Assembly (NCBI GenBank): GCA_025330725.1
Contig: JAIWND010000021.1
Span: 534,235-598,234, forward strand
DNA length: 64,000 nt
Direction: 5' to 3'
DNA from: Chlamydoabsidia padenii
Taxonomy: Eukaryota; Mucoromycota; Mucoromycetes; Mucorales; Cunninghamellaceae
Part shown: piece after piece, positions 43,765 to 62,283 of the stretch
Layout: every line of letters begins with the position of its first letter
Numbering within the stretch: the first letter of the stretch is position 1
Notes under the pieces: model-generated
What the model was told of the DNA's origin: nothing
Database searches by the model: none
The model's input: the letters and a program-made list of their open reading frames with translations, nothing else
Translations under genes and position numbers: made by a program

Positions 43765-44531
43765 TCAAACTTGTAGGACTTGACGGAAGGATTGGGCCAC
43801 CGTCCATCGACGCATCGCACAAGCCACGGGTAAAAGATAGTTAGCCAAATGTCGGATTTCAGTCTTGGTGCCTTGATGTTGGAAGCGTTGCCATAATGCC
43901 AATACCTCTTTTTCTTTATAGACTATAATACAAAACAGTTTAGATCGCTAAGAAGGGGGTGGGGAGGTTCGTCTTGTCTTACCCGGATAGGATGACTTTA
44001 GTTGTTTAAAAAGAAGCCATTTGACCGTCCATAGTGTCAATGTTGGTTCAGTTGTGGTTGGTGGTAGTGGTTTGATGGATGCATAAACGGGTGGCGATGA
44101 CATGATACGATGAAGAGGTGACGATGGTGGTGATGGTGAAGTAGGCTGATGGTATTCGACAGGTGATGTTTGTCTGGCTCGTTTAGTCGGATGAGGCTGA
44201 TCGGGCTGCTGTGGTGGTGGTGGTGGTGGTGGTGGTTGGGTAGGGTGCGGTTCATCAGTCCAGAATGCTTCTTGTAGTGTTTCGAGTACATCTAAAAGAT
44301 TGGATCGTGGTACGTCAAAGATGTTTTCACATAGTGCTTTATACTAAATGATTGGGATTAGTTCGTGGAGGGATGGTTGAGTTTGTTTACCTTTGGTTCG
44401 GTTGGTTCCGTGGCAAATATATTTAGCTAAAAAGATGAATATAAACAAGAGAAGGAAGAGTTTAGCAAGTTGACATGGAATAGAGTAAAATGATTTATAT
44501 GGTTTACCTCTGATAGAGATGGTTGTTCCAT
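43765..44531 (-). CDS. Small proline-rich protein, weakly SRA1/Sec31-C-terminal-like
   Basis: Four exons (about 44531-44508, 44426-44391, 44343-43983, 43922-43765) give 192 aa and were assembled from splice signals because no single long frame shows it. It starts MEQPSLSELNIFATEPTEPK, continues YKALCENIFDVPRSNLLDVL, has eight consecutive Pro followed by a Pro/Ser-rich middle, and ends in a helical block (EVLALWQRFQHQGTKTEIRH, then CAMRRWTVAQSFRQVLQV). The Pro-rich middle plus helical C-terminus resembles the SRA1/Sec31 C-terminal fold in pattern only; function unassigned. The motif GTCGGGATTTGAAATT lies 68 bp 5' of the ATG. Confidence 0.65.
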
Positions 44532-44598
44532 TAAAAGAGAAAGGAGCGAAAGAAGAAGAGAAGCTTGAAAAAAATAAAAATAAAAGATGTTAGAAAAA

Positions 44599-44614
44599 GT
44601 CGGGATTTGAAATT
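44599..44614. promoter_or_regulatory. Recurrent motif GTCGGGATTTGAAATT
   Basis: 68 bp 5' of the start of the proline-rich gene at 44531. A second copy (TTTAAACCCCGCCAT) lies at about 44816-44830, next to the dispersed repeat. Confidence 0.45.
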
Positions 44615-44831
44615 GTGCCCTGGCTTGCCTGTAGAGCGCCTTGATCACCATTGGACGGATCATACAAGTTGAGGCTATACACTTTCAACTAGACATGTAA
44701 ACGTCTGACCCTTGATGATTTATTCTGTCCATTATACTGTAAATACATCAACTATTCCAAGATACACTACCTACATGGTGGCAAGATGGTGCGACAGACC
44801 AGCCAAATCAATATATTTAAACCCCGCCATC

Positions 44832-45245
44832 ATGCAAAAAGAGTAAATTTAATTTTTTGTCGATTAGGGTAAACTTTAGCCCAAGTGGCTTCCTATAGGC
44901 TTCATCTCATTAATGCAAACTATGATGGTCAATGTCCTGTATAAAATTGTTATAATTTGACAATGCATGGGTTATGATCATCTGATTTTTTCTTATAAAA
45001 GATCTTTTTAAATTCTTTTCAGCTTTCCTTGGGGATGCCCACCCATTTAACAAACAACAACAACTTGTCAGTCAATTCTTGGATGAGAATATGACTGCAC
45101 CCCTCCTTTGAGAGGGAAGGGTACGGGGCTTCGGCAAACGGTAAGTAAAAAAAAAAAAAAGGAAACCACATACTTCCCACATAATATTAACTGATATTTC
45201 ATCCTCCGCTTATTCGACGAAAAATTCAAGTTACCGATGCAAAAA
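44832..45245 (-). mobile_element. Dispersed retroposon/SINE-like repeat, copy 2, with 9-bp target-site duplication
   Basis: The 396-bp body (44841-45236, minus orientation) starts GGTAACTTGAATTTTTCG and matches the copy at 15489-15860. It is flanked by ATGCAAAAA at 44832-44840 and 45237-45245. It differs from copy 1 by an inserted A/T homopolymer, a few small indels and an A/T-rich 3' tail after TAATCGAC. Different flanking duplications at the two loci show two independent insertions. Confidence 0.78.
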
Positions 45246-45449
45246 AAGATAGCGTCCATTTTAAAACCACACATAACAAAAAGAGATATAAGAGAATGAT
45301 TTACATATGTTTATTATTAAAACAAAATGGGGATGGGTGACTAAGTTATTGTAAAGCGTGGGGGGTGATGATGATTAGATGTTTACTATAAAGATATTAA
45401 AAATAAAATAAAAAGATGAGTGTCAAATCATTGAATATCCTGTTTTAGT

Positions 45450-46108
45450 TCAACTTACTTGTTGCATAGCTTCCTTCTTTCCCTTACGATCGAGGATAGA
45501 TTGACGGCTGTGATCCAACTTGAGCTTGTTGATGACGACGTTGGAGGGATGGATACCGATAGGAGCAGAGGCACCATTGACCTTTTCACGAGTAACACGT
45601 TCGATGTGGATGACATACTTTTTACGATAGACTTGGACCACCTTGCCTTCACGACCCTTGTAGGTACCACGGACAACAGTGACTTCATCATCACGACGGA
45701 TGGGCATGGCACGGACCTAAAGAGAGAGAGAGAAAAGGAAGGTGTGAGTTGACATTGTAGTGGTGAGTCAATGGCCCGACTTACGCTGTGCTTTTCCTTG
45801 AGTTCCTTGGACAAAGGAGCACTCATGATCTTTTGACGAATATGAGAAGGAGCAGAGAAGTGGGCCTTTCTGCACTTTCGTCGAGAGGAAGTAACGTCTA
45901 CAATGAGAGAATAAGAGAATGAGTAATGGTGATTCCCATGATGAACTCCCCGCCCCTGACATATCAAGTCATCCATCCATCCATCCATCCATCCCGTATT
46001 ATTGTTGGTGTTGTTGTTGCTTATTTGTTGTTTTCATCCCATCCATCCTCGTACGTCGTTTCGTGTATATTTGTTGATCATCCCATCCTTACCAGCACTG
46101 AATTTCAT
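45450..46108 (-). CDS. RPL26: 60S ribosomal protein L26 (uL24)
   Basis: Large-subunit protein near the exit tunnel. Exons about 46108-46093 (MKFSA plus one base), 45897-45785 and 45716-45450 give about 131 aa: [20 protein letters not shown], then [20 protein letters not shown] (the KOW region) and [13 protein letters not shown]. The printed frame ends QQVS; alternatively a further intron starting at that GTAAGT could place a stop directly after QQ. Head to head with ASF1, 199 bp between starts. Confidence 0.95.
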
Positions 46109-46178
46109 GATGTTTTATGTAGAGGAAGAGAAGGAATTCAAACATGCAAAAAAAAAAAAAGAATGCAACCCTCCTTCA

Positions 46179-46196
46179 TTTTTCAAATTCCGCCTG
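46179..46196. promoter_or_regulatory. Recurrent motif TTTTCAAATTCCGCCTGG, RPL26/ASF1 shared promoter
   Basis: 71 bp 5' of the RPL26 ATG and 111 bp 5' of the ASF1 ATG; one mismatch to the core. Confidence 0.45.
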
Positions 46197-46306
46197 GTCT
46201 CCAGCGTTGAATCCCCGACTTTCTTTCTTTTTAAAAAAAAAAAAATCGCGTGCCGTAGCGGAACACGCCGCTTCTTCTTCTACAAATCACTCTTTTTTAA
46301 TACATC

Positions 46307-47121
46307 ATGTCACTGGTCAATATTCTTAATGTAAAGGTGCTAGATAATCCTACACACTTTAACAATGACTTTAACTTTCAAATTACTTTTGAATGCAACG
46401 CTGAACTGAAGGATGGTAAGTACCCCCCCCCTTTATATGGAAACCCTTTCACTCACCTTATATAATTGATAGATCTGGAATGGCGAATGATCTATGTTGG
46501 CTCAGCAGAAAACCCTCAACAAGATCAAGTACTGGATTCTATCATGGTTGGTAAGTGGACACTTTACACAAAAGAACAAGGGTATCTAATTCACTTTTAT
46601 TTTTAAACAGGACCTGTCCCCGTTGGTGTGAACACTTTTGTATTTTCGGTAAAGTAATGAAACGGACCCCCGTGGACCTTTGACTCATCTCTCTCTCTCT
46701 CTCTCTTTATGTAATAGGCACCTGCGCCTAAACTCAACCTTCTACCTCAAAGTGATTTACTTGAAGTGACAGTGGTACTCTTATCCTGCTTGTATCATGA
46801 AAAAGAATTTGTACGTATTGGATATTATGTTAATAATGAATATACCGATGAAGAATTACGTGAAAACCCACCTGCTCAAGTCATTGTCGAAAAACTACAG
46901 CGTAATATTCTGGCTGATAAACCCAAAGTGACAAGGTAAGACATGTTATTATATAGGCTCATACTCATACTATTTTGTTTATAGGTATACCATCAACTGG
47001 ACTGGTGAAGATAATGTCCAACAGACACAACCTGTGGATCAAGTAAGTTTAAAATTAATCATTCAAGATAAATTGAACTAATTGATCCTTCTCTTTGATA
47101 TAGGATATGATGGTCCAATAG
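46307..47121 (+). CDS. ASF1: Histone H3-H4 chaperone ASF1
   Basis: Carries H3-H4 dimers to CAF-1/HIRA during replication and transcription. Six exons (about 46307-46415, 46473-46550, 46611-46648, 46718-46935, 46985-47042, 47104-47121) give 172 aa. The Ig-fold core is well conserved: [55 protein letters not shown]-type [20 protein letters not shown] and [15 protein letters not shown]. The acidic tail seen in yeast is almost absent, so the protein is little more than the core. Confidence 0.95.
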
Positions 47122-47395
47122 AGTCTTTACTTTGGTCACATATAGAATAGTCTTTCGTATTTAACTTGAAAAAATAAACAATATAATTGGGCCTGATTAG
47201 ATGATTGGATAATATGTTTTTTTATTGATTATAGAGATTGGGTGGGAAATAAACTAGTATGTATATAAATAGAGGGATATAGATAGACTACTGTATATGT
47301 ATTGACAAAAGAAGGGTAGATGATATTGGGGGTATACTAGAATCTAGATCAGTATCAAGTTGGCTGCCATGGCAATATCCCCTCTTTACCTTGTC

Positions 47396-48203
47396 TCCTG
47401 TGGGTCGTTGCATGATGACGCTTCCATTGTAATTCCACCATCATCATCTAATTGATGAGCATAAAGAAATCCTTGATTCAATTCCATGTTTGATTTGATT
47501 TTTATTTTCCAGGAATCAGTTTGCAATGTGGACATCTGTCAAATAGGATTAGCCAATTCATGCATGACTTATTTACATTTTCAAACCCCGCTGATGTGAG
47601 CCTTGGCCGTATCCTATTTTTGATATTCGATTAAAATCAACCATCTAACCTACCTTGTCCAATGTGTCATGATGATATATCCGTATCTTATTGTAGATGG
47701 AGTGACCTGTAGTGTGTGTGTGTGTGTATGTATCAGCATGGTGTGGAAGAGGTGTCACTATTCTTCGCTGGAAAGGTAGTTTATTACAGAAGGAGCTGAG
47801 ACCATGTCAAAAATAATTACCTGTTCCATGTCCGTATTAGTCGTGGTGGTGAGTGACAATTTGTTGTAGGCATTGTTGATCCAGGAGTGCTAGAGCAGAA
47901 TGAATAAGGTGGCCCAATGTCGATCTGGTGTTAAAAAGACAGAGCCAGGAGAAGACCCAATGAGTTTTGCTTGAGAGGAATTTCCACTGTTGAGCCAAAG
48001 ATTGATGATGGGTGAACAGTTGGACTTTTTGGTTCTTGTTGATTAGTAAACTTGAATGAGACTCTATTGAAATAAAAAGGGCTACCCCACAAAAAGGGGG
48101 TAGATTGATAAAATTGTTTCTTTTGTGTGTGTGTGTTTTTTCATATTTATACTTAACAACTGTATTGGCTTTTATTTTGTTCCACCAGCCATTGTTTGGT
48201 CAT
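47396..48203 (-). pseudogene. Decayed or unresolved multi-exon gene, product unknown
   Basis: Coding-like exons with consensus borders: about 48034-47821 (SPIINLWLNSGNSSQAKLIG, GSVFLTPDRHWATLFILL), 47767-47654 (HSIYNKIRIYHHDTLDK) and 47535-47396 (LQTDSWKIKIKSNMELNQGF, then LYAHQLDDDGG), ending TAA. The first piece has one in-frame TAG at 47892-47890 (LL-stop-HSWINNAYNK), which a single C-to-T change from CAG would explain. A likely first exon (MTKQWLVEQNKS) starts at 48203, 93 bp from the motif at 48296-48312, but its join is unresolved. No family recognised. Confidence 0.4.
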
Positions 48204-52927: not shown

Positions 52928-53800
52928 GAAGTAGTATTAAGTTGTTTGATTTAGTTTGGACCAACAGAGAGAAGAAAAAGAAAAAAGAAAGCGGGGAAGG
53001 ACCAGACCAGATGAAATCGTGGGCGGTCTTTTAAAATATCGGGATGCGGGTGACCTTCCGCTCTTCTCATGATAACGTAAATTGTAGCCTTTCGCCATCT
53101 TATTACTGTTGTATATGATGCATGGATAAAGTATATGTTTGTGGATTTATTTAAATGTGGATTTATATAAATCAGGTTTGATTCCCTTGACTTTTTGAAA
53201 AGAAGTATCATGTTCTTGTCCAAGTGTTAAATTCACTCACATAGCTAGATCACTTTTTCAGGGAAGGATCATAAATGACAATAGTTATTTCATCAAATTA
53301 TCAGTAATGCACCCAGTATTTCTGTTTGTTTGTTTTTTTATGTAAAAAGGTAGACAAAAGAAGAGAGGATGAAAATGCATAAAGGAACGGCTTACTATAT
53401 TTGGATAATACGGTGTAGGTTGGTTATCAATGGATGATGAGCCCATTGTGCTCATATAATAGCATTGGTACGATTTAACAATGGGTTTTACATCAAAAAC
53501 ATAATATATCCTTTGATTTTCTACAACGTTTCCACAGTTATGAAAAAGTAAACCCAATGTCGGTTCTTGGTCAAGAGTATATAATAAGATCAATCGAAGG
53601 ATAATGTTTTATTGTTCCATAAAGAGGTTATATTTATACTAATCTGAATCTAAACTAAAAGGGATGGAAATATCGAGAGAGTGATGGATAAAAGTAAAAG
53701 AGACGGAGAGAGACGAAGGAAAGTTCTGGAGTTTTGTTAATAAATCCAAACACCAACCTGTATTCACACCCCGACCAAAGGTTAAAAACAAGAAAAAAAG
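52928..53800. other. Intergenic with a coding-like minus-strand fragment
   Basis: Minus strand 53593-53395 reads TLDQEPTLGLLFHNCGNVVE and DNQPTPYYPNI up to a donor-like GTAAGC, then joins a short exon (KYWVHY, stop). It lacks a clear start: a TAA precedes the open part. A weak motif variant is near 53022-53038. It may be a further relic downstream of the tRNA. Confidence 0.35.
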
Positions 53801-53872
53801 CTCTCAGACGGGGAATTGAACCCCGGTCTCCCGCGTGACAGGCGGGGATACTAACCACTATACTATCTAAGA
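53801..53872 (-). tRNA. tRNA-Asp (GTC)
   Basis: A 72-nt cloverleaf on the minus strand. Acceptor stem TCTTAGA/TCTGAGA pairs fully (one G-T), discriminator G at 53801. A-box region TAGTATAGTGG, anticodon loop CTGTCAC with GTC at about 53839-53837 in a CCCGC/GCGGG stem, variable loop, and T arm CGGGG-TTCAATT-CCCCG. No intron, no encoded CCA. The 5' end directly abuts the LINE at 53873, and bases 1-16 are repeated at the far end of that element. Confidence 0.95.
53857..53872. repeat. LINE target-site duplication, tRNA copy (16 bp)
   Basis: ACTATACTATCTAAGA on the + strand, identical to 59256-59271. It equals bases 1-16 of the mature tRNA-Asp; the match stops at both edges. Confidence 0.9.
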
Positions 53873-54352
53873 GAGAGTATAGATAGTTTAACGCGCGTCG
53901 AAATTTCTCTCTCTTTTATACTTTTTTCCACGGCATTACCCCTTAAATTACACCCCTTGTGACACCTGACACATACCATTTTTTACCCCTTGATTTAAAC
54001 TCCGACATTTATTTCCTTTTTCGACCATCAACACCCCCATTTCTAAAAAAATTATTTTACCCCTTGATCCAAACCCCGACACACCGTCACCTCATCCCAA
54101 CAACACTTCACTCACCACCATTCCCCCTGTACCACCCCCTAATCAACTGCTTCCGACCCCTCCTCCCGGTACTAAACGCACTCGCGACCTCCTGACTAAA
54201 GTACCCCTTACCCCCTCCCAAGTATCAGCCAGAAAACGACAGGCTACCCCCATTGCTACCCCCCAAAAAACCCCCATTTAGAAAAAACAAACACACACAA
54301 AAAAAAAAATTACCCCTCACCCCTTCCACTAACCACCACCCCGGATTCCGCC

Positions 54353-55369
54353 ATGGCAACCCCCCCTAGCAACGCACTTCCAGACTGGGCACTCCAGATG
54401 GAAAAACGACTTTCTAGCATGGAAGCCATCATTAAAGAAAACCAAAACCTTCGCACCGAACTCATCGCTGCCAAACAACTCATAGAAAAACTACAACAAC
54501 AAATACAAGATCAAAACCCACCCACAATTTCAAACAACGGAAAAAACCATGCGACTTTTTCAAACACCGACATACGACCCCTTTTGACTCATGATACCGT
54601 TTTCGATCGTCATACATCCACGCAGGACTCGATATATGCAACAGTACCAAACACCACCACACCTCACTCCTCCTACGCCGCCATTACCAAGAAGACAATA
54701 CCACCAAAAAAAAAAAAGCCAGCCCATCTCCAACAAAAAAAAAAAAAGGAGATGGATCGCCTTCGACATCCTTCTGACGGAATGGTGGAATGGGCACTTC
54801 GACATTTCAACGAACCCGCTGGACCACAAGGGTATACCTTTGTGTATCTCCCCTCTCCTAGACGCACCACACCAAGTGAACTCCGAAAGACACTCACTAT
54901 CCTCGGCATTAACACCAAACGAATTATTGATATTCACACCCCGACAAGAAAGGTCATCGGTATATTGATTCACCAATCCTACGCAGACGAATTCACAGAC
55001 ATATTAAAAAAAAAGAAGCTAACCCCACTCACATTTGATCCCACAGCAGCTTCCGTCCTTGTAGATCCTCGCTTCGACCATTACAACGAAGAACAGCGCG
55101 TACAGACAGCCACCACCATCCACCAAAAACGAATCGGCACCATCTGTCGCCGTATGCGCAACCAGCACCTCGGGAACGCCCTCATCTCATTTTTTCATAA
55201 CACCGACGGCCCCCACCACATCAATGATGATATATACACCGATCACTTCCAATCATCCACAGCAACTCGACCACTCAACCTCGATTCCCAAGATTCCAAT
55301 CCCGACACCCAGGACATCGACCCCAATGACATGGACATCCAAGATTCCCAAGGTGAATCCTGCTCATGA
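54353..55369 (+). CDS. LINE ORF1 protein
   Basis: 338 aa. Residues about 10-50 form a heptad-like coiled coil (WALQMEKRLSSMEAIIKENQ and following Leu/Gln-rich helix), then a Thr/Pro/Lys-rich linker and a basic C-terminal domain (TPSELRKTLTILGINTKRII, RRMRNQHLGNALISFF). ORF1 proteins coat element RNA; no CCHC knuckles are seen here. The stop overlaps the ORF2 start as ATGA. Confidence 0.85.
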   Translation: MATPPSNALPDWALQMEKRLSSMEAIIKENQNLRTELIAAKQLIEKLQQQIQDQNPPTISNNGKNHATFSNTDIRPLLTHDTVFDRHTSTQDSIYATVPNTTTPHSSYAAITKKTIPPKKKKPAHLQQKKKKEMDRLRHPSDGMVEWALRHFNEPAGPQGYTFVYLPSPRRTTPSELRKTLTILGINTKRIIDIHTPTRKVIGILIHQSYADEFTDILKKKKLTPLTFDPTAASVLVDPRFDHYNEEQRVQTATTIHQKRIGTICRRMRNQHLGNALISFFHNTDGPHHINDDIYTDHFQSSTATRPLNLDSQDSNPDTQDIDPNDMDIQDSQGESCS

Positions 55370-58300
55370 TGAGGGTCCAACAAAATCAACCTCCAAGTGC
55401 TCTCGAGCACACCAAAAAAATAATAAAAATCGCTCAACTCAATGCACAAGGAATTGACCGACTCCCTGACGAAGTCATCACCTTCTGCACAAAAAAAAAA
55501 ATAGACATCCTCTTACTAACCGAGACATATCTTTTAACAGGTAACCTTCACACCACCTGGACACAATACCACACCTACGCCACCAAAGCACCCACTGCAC
55601 ATAGAGGTCATGGAGGATTATCACTACTAATCCGCCCTGACTTTCCTCATCACGTCCACCATCATCCCACCATAAATCAGTACACTATCACTTGTTCCAT
55701 AGATAAATATACCATCCATGGCCTCTATCTCCCACCACAACTTGATCTAGTCCAGTATCGATCTACTTTATTTAATATCCCAATCCACAGCAATACTATT
55801 ATACTAGGAGACCTAAACACCAGATTAGGACCAACAATTGGAGACACCAGGACGAACAACCGTCACCACACCTTTGAGGAATGGCAGAACACCCACGACA
55901 TCATCAACTGGAATCAAGTTTATGCTTTTGGCCAGCCCACACTTGACACCATCAACGGAAGGAGCATCATCGATTTTTTCCTATCACCACAGGGTCCCAC
56001 TGCCGCCAACGAAGTCATCATCCACCATCAGCATTCGTTTAATTCCGACCACCATCTATGTGAGGCTTCCTTTGTAATAGACCAGACCATCGCAATCCTT
56101 CCACCACCACCTCCAGGCAGACGACAATGGAAACTCCAACGATTAACCGAGCAGGACCTAACCAACATATACATTAATACCTTCACCACATCCACCCTAC
56201 CAATAATAGAGCGCCTTCACACCCTACATTCATCCTCACCTACCTACTGCGATTCTGATGGCTACCACCTAATCGAAGAGATTGCCACCCAGATCACCAC
56301 CAACATCTACGACGCGTTGGATGCCAGTGTCACCCCAAGCAAAGTCAGGCCCAAAAATTGGAAATGGTTTTGGACCGAAGAACTTCAAAACCTAGCCACC
56401 AATCGACAGCACCACTACAACACATGGAGGAATACCACCAACCCCATCGCCCAAATCGCCACATGGAAGAAATACATCCAAGCCAAGTCCAAGTTCACCA
56501 ATGCAGTCAAGCTAGCCAGGGCAATACAATGGCGACAATTTGCACAGGATCTACAGGCTTCAACAGGTAATGAGGTTAATAAGTATATTAAAAGAAGAAA
56601 AAAAACATCCACACCCTCCCCCACATTTTCCACCCCTCTCGGCCCCCAAGATGCAGCGGATCAAATGCGCAATCATTTAGCCACGGTCTTTGGAGGTCAT
56701 AGGCAGAGCACCCAACCACCCAACCCCACTCCATTTTCGTCTCCCATACCCTCCTTTTTCTCTTCTGCTAACTTACATAGAATCATCACCACCGAATTGC
56801 CGATGCGCAAAGCTCCAGGTAAAGACCATATCACCAGTGAGATGCTACGACCCATCGCCGATCCATTATCCAAAGTCCTATCACCACTTCTCCATATGTG
56901 TTGGGTATGGTCCTATATTCCAACAATGTGGCGTACTGCCCAAGTGGTGCCAATCTATAAAAAGAATGATATAACCGACCCCAGCAACTACCGACCCATT
57001 AGCTTAACCTGTACATTCCGCAAGATCATCGAGCGTACCCTATTACCTGTACTGAAAAACCAAATGAAGGCCCTAGACTTCGTCCAAGGTGGTTTCCGAG
57101 AGAAACGAGGCAGTCTTGATCAAGCATTCAACCTTCACATGATCATCCGGGAATACAAGCGCCAATACCACCATTCACCAACACTAGCCTTCTTGGACAT
57201 CAAACAGGCCTATGACTCCGTCCAACGCACCATTATCTGGACCAAACTACACGATCAAGGCGTCCAACCCGAGCTATTATCTATTATCAGAAATATGTTC
57301 GAAGAGGTGAGTATTCAAATCATCATCAAAAATTATCTATCCACCCCTATCCACCCCACCACCGGTGTCCTACAAGGTTCTATCTTGAGTCCACTCCTGT
57401 ACGCCGTTTTTATAGATTCCTTACCTGAAGCCCTAAGGATAACAGGTAACCACCCCATCACCATTCGTACCCTACCTCCATCATTATTATCAGAATCAGC
57501 CATCCTACAAAAGAAAAGAAAAAAACAGAAAAGCCAAAAGGTTAGACACCCAGGTAAGTATAATCAATTCCACCCTTTTTGCCGACGACGTTGCCTTGGT
57601 TGGTTCTGCCGAAGATATCGCCAACATGCTTACCATCGCTGAACGCCATTCCCAAGATAATGGTTACCAATGGAGTCCAACCAAATGCGAACTAGTCAAT
57701 CCTTCGCCTACCATTCCATACACCATCTACAACCAGCCCTTACCTGTATCGACATCATTCAAATATTTGGGCATTCCTTTCAACGAAGACGGTATCTGTA
57801 ATTCCCAACTGGTCCATCAAGCCATTACCAAAGCCACCAACCAACAACAAGCCCTCCGTCGAATAGGTCTACACCAATATGGGCTAGGCATCCACCAAGC
57901 CATCAAAGCCTATCGCACCTTTATCCGCCCCATCCTTGAATATGGTCTGGCCATCGTCCAACTTCATCCAACACACCTTCGTGAAATCCACAAGTGCCAG
58001 CAGAGATGCATCCGTCTTCTGTTGAATCATAACATCACAGCGAATTCACCCACCACCATTATCGAGCACATTGGCAATATACCGACTACCGACATTCGTA
58101 TCAAGATATTGCAATTCAAGTTCCTTGCTCGTATCCACCAACTTCCACCATGTGTTTTTAATCGCTAATATCGTCGCTTCATTCCTTCCGTTTGTGTCCC
58201 GAGATGCTGAATGGTCAAAGATGATTAAACGTAATAACCTATATCAATTATTTAAAAAACAACAAGAAAAAAAAGATAAAATATGAAGAAGAAAAAAACA

Positions 58301-58985
58301 AAAGAGATAAAAGAAACAAAAAAAAAGAAGATAAAAAAAAACAAAAAGAAAAAGAAAAGAAAAAGAAAAAGAAACAGAAAAACTTAAATTATCGTCACAG
58401 CACTAACCCTAATTCGGATACACCCACTTCAGACTCAGATTCTGATTTAGAATTAGATCCCCCTCCCCCTAGTATAGATTCCATCACTACCATTATCACA
58501 GAACACCGAGATGCTGATCATCGCACTCGCCAACAACAACATGTCACCCTCCAGAGATCACGTCCTCCTCCTCTTCCTCGCCGTATGGACCCTATAATCA
58601 CCATACCTGCCACTACCAAAGAACGCCATCGCCTCATCAAATGGAGGATGCATTGGCTCCCACACATCCTACACCAACTTGCTCCTGCGATCATATCAGT
58701 TCAGGCACAAGAATCCATTACACCCAAGAATGCCACATTCTAGAACCCTTCATCATTCAGCTCCAAATGACAATGGCCCGGTACAACCTCCCACCAATAC
58801 CAACTCACATCCACCATCTTAATATCATTGATCATTTCCTCAACCTCCTTCCGAGTGATCACAACAAGATGAAGCTCCCACACTCCCACTGGCATCGAAC
58901 ATGGCCTCTTCTTCTCTCCACCCTTCTCGCCATCGATATCCACTCCCACCCAACTGCCACATTTGAACCCGAACCATTGACCTAA
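55366..58985 (+). CDS. LINE ORF2: AP endonuclease and reverse transcriptase, frame-broken
   Basis: Opens at the ATG inside ATGA (55366-55369). Endonuclease at about residues 25-235: QLNAQGI, LLTETYL, GHGGLSLLIR, LGDLNTRLG and the final SDHH. The RT begins with APGKDHITSEML and continues PIYKKNDITDPSNYRPISLT, AFLDIKQAYDSV and GVLQGSILSPLLYAVFIDSL. A frame change in an A-rich stretch (about 57511-57540) precedes FADDVALVGSAED, which continues to a stop at 58168. A later frame (58641-58985) has the Cys-His pattern CSCDH...HYTQECH of the C-terminal zinc domain. The A-rich stretch 58250-58400 separates them. Non-functional as printed. Confidence 0.88.
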
Positions 58986-59255
58986 GGTGGATGCAATCTG
59001 CTCCATCCCCATTCACCTCAACATCATCATGATCATTCATGCAACATATTTTCAACACCCGACCTTCCCATCTCACTCTCCACACAACCTACTTTTTTTT
59101 TTTAAATTCTGATCAGGCACTACCTGATCACTTTCTTTTTTTTCTGAATCCCTCCCCCCAGTCCTCCCCACAAGCCAACCATATACGTTTCGTGCTCGGT
59201 TTTTCTAGTGCTTGTTGTTGTTTGACACACAACCTTTAATAAAAATAAACTTTGA

Positions 59256-59271
59256 ACTATACTATCTAAGA
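59256..59271. repeat. LINE target-site duplication, distal copy (16 bp)
   Basis: Second copy of ACTATACTATCTAAGA. It is a truncated tRNA-Asp 5' end (bases 1-16) followed by the original upstream flank TTCCATATTTTTATAG. Confidence 0.9.
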
Positions 59272-59766
59272 TTCCATATTTTTATAGACATTAATGTACT
59301 ATATATATCACAAATCAATATTTTAGGCTCCGGCGCAATATGATTGGTGCGGAATCAAATTTTGCGTCATTTTCGGAACTACTCCCTGGTGATCTGTTGG
59401 TCTTGATGCATACACCACGGTAACTATTATTACATGAAATGTTTTGGCGCATTAATGTTATTATCACCAATTATCATTTTATTATTAAGTTAATTGTTTA
59501 TTATAACATTATACTAATACTAGAGAGATAAAAAGCTATAACTAGTGGAGAGAGGGAGAGGAAGATGAGGATGGTGGGTATACAAATGTATAACAAGAAT
59601 GTTTTCTATTGCTAAAAGACAGATACAGATAATCGTCGCGGGGGTTACATACAGAGACAAAGTCATTCCAAAAAAAAAAAAAAAAAAAAAAAGGATAGGA
59701 GGTCCGGTATGATTCTATTTGCATCCCTATCCACTTTATATATATCAGTTTACCTTTTACTTGACT
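59272..59766. other. Intergenic; one short exon-like stretch
   Basis: A plus-strand fragment near 59340-59420 (MIGAESNFASFSELLPGDLL) has an F-box-like look and ends at a possible donor, but nothing continues it. An A tract is near 59671-59692. No gene called. Confidence 0.35.

Positions 59767-60768: not shown

Positions 60769-62283
<1,515 letters not shown>

Follow-up and report, generated by a model that had tools for sequence, protein, structure and literature searches.

A non-LTR retrotransposon of Chlamydoabsidia padenii that appears to target the 5' end of tRNA-Asp genes

The window analysed here, a 64,000-nucleotide stretch of DNA from the mucoralean fungus Chlamydoabsidia padenii (contig JAIWND010000021.1, forward strand, positions 534,235 to 598,234; contig C14 below), contains a transfer RNA gene, tRNA-Asp(GTC), joined directly to a non-long-terminal-repeat (non-LTR) retrotransposon of the LINE type. 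The tRNA gene lies on the minus strand at 53801-53872 and is intact, including its internal promoter region; it was called by ARAGORN (53800-53872) and by Rfam (RF00005, 53801-53872, 60.8 bits). The element, with ends set by comparing copies, occupies 5,383 bp at 53873-59255 on the plus strand. As base 1 of the tRNA is at 53872, the two are immediate neighbours, head to head. A target duplication of 16 bp, ACTATACTATCTAAGA, was located at 53857-53872 and again at 59256-59271, where it forms a 16-nt tRNA stub; both copies equal tRNA bases 1-16 read backwards. The sequence-only reading of this single insertion had described the same junction, the same duplication and a tRNA left whole with a stub at the far end, and all three descriptions held. 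A 22-base string spanning the 3' junction, with up to 3 mismatches allowed, matched the window once and gave 0 matches in 100 shuffles.

Two open reading frames (ORFs) were assigned to the plus strand of the element. ORF1 (54353-55369, 338 aa) contains no Pfam domain above the cut-off, and its end overlaps the start of ORF2. Based on domain matches and copy comparison, the first part of ORF2 (55366-57642) carries an N-terminal endonuclease at aa 24-229, matched by Exo_endo_phos (E=7.1e-9; 36.2 bits, cut-off 24.5), and a reverse transcriptase at aa 532-691. The latter matched RVT_1 with E=1.7e-25 in a copy on contig C56, and matches in the PDB included LINE-1 ORF2 and R2; a PDB search with the endonuclease part alone returned no match. 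ORF2 is therefore predicted to combine an apurinic/apyrimidinic (APE)-type endonuclease with a reverse transcriptase. No restriction-like endonuclease was among the ORF2 hits in Pfam, where such domains are poorly covered. The frame of the window copy is broken by a shift at ~57.5 kb, the match to other copies leaving the frame after aa 726, and is broken again farther on. The continuation lies in a different frame at 57596-58168, with a further piece at 58641-58985. In one C56 copy (L010), ORF2 is open over 1,221 aa and both reading frames are open. Named close relatives of ORF2 were found in Absidia, Parasitella, Circinella, Mucor and Phycomyces, mostly Mucorales, and outside that group in Albugo candida; no relative was found in a scan of IMG/VR.

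The 3' ends of the element are precise and without a poly(A) tail. The conserved terminus ACAACCTTTAATAAAAATAAACTTTGA (59229-59255, plus strand) has 10 matches in the genome, with an A-run of 5-7 across copies. Read backwards on the minus strand, the same 27 bases present T5 to T7 just past the stub in 10 copies, a possible terminator for RNA polymerase III (Pol III). Apart from the duplication, no terminal repeats were found at the element junctions compared, and no LTRs.

The genome searched comprised 34.2 Mb in 95 contigs. Eight full tRNA-Asp genes were found, all identical, and 6 of the 8 carry a copy of the element at base 1: the window gene on C14, two genes on C56, and one each on C67, C21 and C75, the last with a 5'-truncated copy. 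A 180-base stretch leading from the tRNA into the element was recovered in full at 5 places. At C56 1013953 (C56b) and at C21, the joint is 2 bp shorter, with one GA fewer, in a manner that looks like microhomology; since the element begins GAGAG, bases 1-16 are still readable. The two unoccupied genes are on C23 and at C14:505224. An element relic (element positions 671-1131, 93%) lies ~300 bp upstream of the former; 263 bp of that gene's upstream flank resemble, at 91%, the DNA behind the C19 stub and represent a paralogous empty site.

The opposite ends gave the same picture. A pattern covering the last 27-29 bases of the element and demanding five A identified ten 3' ends, and a DNA similarity search of the 3' region, made without the A requirement, returned the same ten places. 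Nine of the ten adjoin the target 16-mer, one of these (C13a, the most diverged copy) with a single mismatch; the tenth is C78. The 16-mer ACTATACTATCTAAGA occurs 17 times in the genome against 0 for its reversed control and ~0.016 expected for a random 16-mer at equal base use; these occurrences comprise the 8 tRNA-Asp genes, 1 partial tRNA-Asp and 8 stubs. The partial gene, at C32:213110-213148, is a 39-nt tRNA-Asp fragment (95%) with bases 1-16 intact and no element. Seven of the nine 5' ends seen are at the target, six at tRNA genes and one, that of a second element on C75, at the stub of the first; the other two belong to C13a and C78. The targeting that had first been suggested from one insertion was thus recovered at both kinds of junction listed across the genome.

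Contig C75 carries a tandem arrangement at 44309-48073, consisting of the tRNA-Asp gene, a 5'-truncated copy (C75A), a 16-bp stub and the second element (C75B). With 0 private substitutions each, the two copies are too alike for their insertions to be ordered. The arrangement shows that a stub or rebuilt junction can be hit again. C78, at 460210-461824, is the other 5'-truncated copy; its duplication is 11 bp, compared with 16 bp for C75A. The 3' end of C78 is followed by ACTATATCTGGT and its duplication is CTATATCTGGT; the copy lies 81 bp downstream of a tRNA-Ser(AGA) gene, with a tRNA-Ser(GCT) gene also close by. Because this different duplication stands in the place of the stub, the stub is target sequence and not part of the element, and the possibility that the element carries the tRNA along with it was ruled out. 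The C78 copy also has an extra A absent from its own target, for which reason the element may end ..TTTGAA and the duplication may be 15 bp, the boundary being uncertain by one base. Alternatively, the extra A at C78 may reflect RNA read one base into a former target.

Not all junctions are equally trustworthy. The stretch from 59272 to the window end, where contig C14 also stops, is a repeat of C56:1019352-1024089, with 99.75% identity over 1,630 bp and 100% over 3,401 query bases in two comparisons. This near-exact repeat of the last 4.7 kb includes a reading frame at 60769 that appears Esa1-like by eye, and is probably an assembly overlap or a recent duplication. The window element and the C56 copy sharing its 3' flank differ by 10 substitutions in 5,378 compared positions plus 10 gap columns; both the broken frame and the right flank of the window copy may be contig-end errors. 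Since the window 3' flank may be chimeric, the proof of insertion rests on C56 975479-970091 (C56a) and C67 362612-367907, each of which has its own flanks on both sides together with the duplication. C14, C21 and C75B have a trustworthy 5' side only, and C4, C19 and C13b a 3' side only, the contigs ending inside these elements. Three 5' halves and three 3' halves suggest three broken insertions, giving nine in total with eight at tRNA-Asp.

The DNA beyond the stubs was compared with that upstream of other tRNA genes. The sample comprised 38 distinct tRNA 5' flanks from 36 loci, chosen for a high tRNA score or because they were already at hand, and is biased to that extent. TATA occurs between -41 and -29 in 35 of the 38, and TTTATATA in 30 (at -36 in 16, -35 in 11, -34 in 2 and -41 in 1); the shared box lies near -34 and reads about GTGCTTTATATA. 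CACGTG was also seen between -71 and -51 in 11 of the 38 flanks and could be a second upstream element. Both unoccupied tRNA-Asp genes have TATA near -34, and a tRNA-type TATA at this distance lies behind 5 of 7 stubs (C56b, C4, C13b, C13a and C19). Two further stubs were omitted from this count, that of the window, whose flank repeats C56b, and that of C75A, which has an element behind it. The omitted window flank (59272-59341, minus strand) is of tRNA type, its TATA words standing at -36, -34 and -32 relative to the stub as positioned from the C56 copy; it is the same flank as in C56 and perhaps chimeric here. In most cases the far flank is thus recognisable as the promoter region of the tRNA itself, and this backs the target also for copies that lack a tRNA side.

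Taken together, these junctions make it very probable that the element, a non-LTR retrotransposon of the APE type, is site-specific and normally inserts at the 5' end of tRNA-Asp genes. Several points weigh against this reading. C78 is off target, and C13a has a stub with no tRNA on its 5' side. The two stub flanks without TATA near -34, C67 (at -46/-44) and C56a (none there), are those of the two cleanest insertions. Identity among several copies reaches 99-100%, and the count of independent jumps rests on their differing flanks; the pairing of C14, C21 and C75B as 5' halves with C4, C19 and C13b as 3' halves is our own construction. The window 3' flank, which may belong to another locus, bears on the window copy, and when it is set aside as possibly borrowed, 8 of 9 3' ends adjoin the target 16-mer. 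The similarity searches give lower bounds, diverged copies possibly having been overlooked, and the copies all come from the DNA sequence of one genome. Finally, we infer the nick positions, strand order and RNA pairing proposed below from general knowledge of target-primed reverse transcription.

Under the proposed mechanism, the element ribonucleoprotein would nick the tRNA-sense strand after tRNA base 15 or 16, within the A box. Reverse transcription, primed by the freed 3' end, would begin at a precise RNA terminus that lacks poly(A) (..AAACTTTGA), the primer ..TAGTATAGT perhaps pairing with read-through RNA that contains the stub (ACUAUAC..). The second strand would then be cut 15-16 bp away at tRNA base 1, and fill-in would duplicate bases 1-16. 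This order of nicks is the one expected for target-primed reverse transcription in general.

Most likely it is chiefly the DNA sequence that is recognised, the cut being made to the base in one isoacceptor; the element may first be attracted to Pol III genes. A short recognition sequence is favoured because the C75 insertion used either a stub without a B box or a tRNA with foreign upstream DNA. The alternative is that tethering comes first, with ORF1 or ORF2 binding TFIIIB/TFIIIC of the Pol III machinery, a mode proposed for Dictyostelium TRE5-A; DNA left open by the complex, or a short sequence preference such as CTATA, would then set the exact base. We consider this somewhat unlikely as the primary determinant. 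The point in its favour, which also counts against pure sequence recognition, is that the only off-target copy lies 81 bp after tRNA-Ser(AGA) and close to tRNA-Ser(GCT); a position within 100 bp of a tRNA gene has a chance of ~0.1-0.3%, assuming 150-400 tRNA genes. For comparison, 174 tRNAs have been counted in Lichtheimia corymbifera and 239 in Rhizopus oryzae (PMC4133162). This is, however, a single event, and it was noticed only afterwards. No tRNA other than tRNA-Asp was hit exactly among the ten 3' ends found; the 30 tRNA loci taken from the best scores are other isoacceptors, and the upstream TTTATATA is kept by 30 of the 38 flanks in the sample. The C75 insertion, at a 16-bp stub lacking a B box or at a tRNA whose upstream DNA had been replaced, also speaks against tethering. 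The C78 site nevertheless hints that endonuclease specificity and a Pol III partner may both matter.

Independence of the insertions would be false if one original event had been spread by duplication or recombination of the tRNA-element unit. C14 and C56 do share a 3' flank, many copy pairs differ by 0-1%, the first 42 bp behind the stub match at 88% between C13b and C4, and at a greater distance from the stub C4 and C67 have a common repeat (83% over up to 667 bp, in opposite orientation). When 1.2 kb of tRNA-side flank was compared for each of the six occupied genes at E <= 1e-6, only 140 bp at 76% (C56b and C67) proved alike. The six junctions include one 5'-truncated copy and two with the 2-bp difference, and the flanks next to the stub differ among C56a, C67, C19 and C4. 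Spread of a single unit is on these grounds very unlikely and largely refuted.

An assembly artefact behind the window duplication is likewise highly improbable. The right end of the window copies C56, and the three 5' halves equal the three 3' halves in number; an error would touch at most the window's own 3' side, and at C56a and C67 both junctions are seen, each with flanks of its own. Random insertion followed by selection, with survivors at tolerated sites only, appeals to the general argument that a compact genome would purge insertions in genes, but it has virtually no probability left and is refuted by the junction census, as selection could not single out one base of one isoacceptor in 8 of the 9 insertions inferred (chance ~3e-55 under uniform insertion at the 8 genes found) and a related LINE family sits elsewhere.

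That next family, C36:192899-197236 and C81:11939-16247, is 98.4% alike over 4.3 kb and has 41% protein identity to the tRNA-Asp element. It ends AATAAAAAATCCTTTATCTTC, and the C-terminal half of its ORF1 resembles, by eye, the ORF1 of the tRNA-Asp element. No tRNA genes were found in the surrounding DNA examined at either place, where the flanks differ and the 5' end of the C36 element was not located. None were found in the DNA examined around LINEs on C71 and C54 either. A general preference of the LINEs here for tRNA genes was ruled out by these four places. A relic on C30 (56% identity over its best stretch) lies between tRNA-Phe and tRNA-Arg, and that tRNA-Phe keeps its own upstream TATA box. 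Among the strongest LINE matches examined, and on this evidence, exact tRNA targeting would be a trait of one family and not of all LINEs here.

The preferred reading of a tRNA-Asp-specific element also bears on the fate of the occupied genes. The site had been suggested to be a harmless safe haven. The tRNA body is indeed kept, and the internal promoter region of the occupied genes is untouched; harmlessness is another matter, as the TATA box near -34 was left beyond the element in 5 of 7 stub flanks. Insertion accordingly parts the tRNA body from its upstream promoter, for which reason the site need not be harmless. The element does not supply a canonical box near -34, and this possibility was rejected, no TATA-like sequence having been found at -36 to -29 of occupied genes. 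Its 5' end does contain TATAAAA pointing at the tRNA, in the window at 53914-53920 on the minus strand (-48 to -42 of tRNA base 1, where other tRNA genes have TATA near -34). The motif starts at -48 in C14, C67 and C56a and at -46 in C56b and C21, and is absent from the truncated C75A. A position matrix built from native flanks scored highest on the element at position -90, where random window pieces score as well in 4.7% of cases.

A more speculative idea is a promoter swap tuned to the host. The stagger would rebuild all transcribed tRNA bases, the element TATAAAA (at -48/-46 in 5 of 6 genes) would replace the lost box, and T5-T7, a possible terminator, would stop transcription from the orphaned promoter and stub. 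Each stub would be a fresh target, giving tandem rows, and most tRNA-Asp genes (6 of the 8 found) would depend on element-borne upstream sequence. We consider this unlikely as a whole.

The element is a naturally occurring LINE whose target is short, exact and confined to a single isoacceptor, and at least one of its copies, L010, has both frames open. With such a copy and such a target, the base precision of an APE endonuclease, whether set by sequence or by Pol III factors, is directly testable. It also illustrates how an element can persist within essential genes, by duplicating exactly the part otherwise lost, and as the TATA near -34 has been lost, the occupied genes offer a natural test of upstream box function in the tRNA genes of this group. 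Elements of this kind are of interest as leads for site-directed DNA insertion. Elsewhere, the window encodes a UTP10-like protein, and C49:6580-120474 carries seven equal-score tRNA genes on one contig, four of which form two close pairs ~165 bp apart.

Known non-LTR elements associated with tRNA genes had been said to insert at a distance from the gene. That statement was incomplete, as in-gene targeting is already published for NeSL-related elements specific for one tRNA type, namely NeSL-1_TV for tRNA-Pro, LIN15_SM for tRNA-Arg and LIN25_SM for tRNA-Glu (PMC4640811). These share with the present element the non-LTR structure and the restriction to a single tRNA gene type. NeSL is, however, a clade with a restriction-like endonuclease (PMC4640811), whereas ORF2 of the tRNA-Asp element has an N-terminal APE domain. 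APE-derived endonucleases are described for the R1 and Tx1 clades (PMC4640811). The distances themselves also vary. Dewa of zebrafish is target-specific and linked to tRNA-Leu but inserts in the spacer (PMC3706591), in contrast to the in-gene site here. The TREs of dictyostelids resemble the present element in tRNA-gene targeting and in having an ORF1 followed by an APE-reverse transcriptase ORF2 (PMC5006619). TRE5 inserts ~50 bp upstream, TRE3 ~100 bp downstream and Dp_NLTR-A 2-6 bp upstream (PMC5006619), compared with exact base 1, bases 1-16 duplicated and one isoacceptor here. Neither the ~50 bp upstream nor the ~100 bp downstream distance was found for the present element, and only the off-target C78, 81 bp downstream, resembles TRE3.

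Fixed sites inside tRNA genes, including tRNA-Asp, are also used by the Dada DNA transposons, Dada-tD among them, and in three Dada families the duplicated bases form part of the A box (PMC3706591, PMC8869645). Dada elements have a DDE transposase and duplications of 6-7 bp, unlike the present LINE with its 16 bp. SART1, TRAS and R1-type elements are likewise site-specific LINEs, SART1 and TRAS using telomeric repeats; the RNA of SART1 has been hypothesised to pair with its target, and SART1 also needs a longer poly(A) tail (PMC7265360). Grem-LINE1 of Mucor is a mucoralean LINE with AP endonuclease and reverse transcriptase (PMC7377519). It is pericentric and has zf-RVT and zinc-finger domains, none of which were found by Pfam here, and 'tRNA' occurs 0 times in the text of that paper (PMC7377519). 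No report of a fungal or mucoralean LINE in tRNA genes appeared in the titles and abstract starts searched, a coverage that leaves out most subscription journals. Compared with all of these systems, what seems less usual here is that the duplication restores the gene body but not the promoter region, which stays on the far side, and that a stub or rebuilt joint can be hit again.

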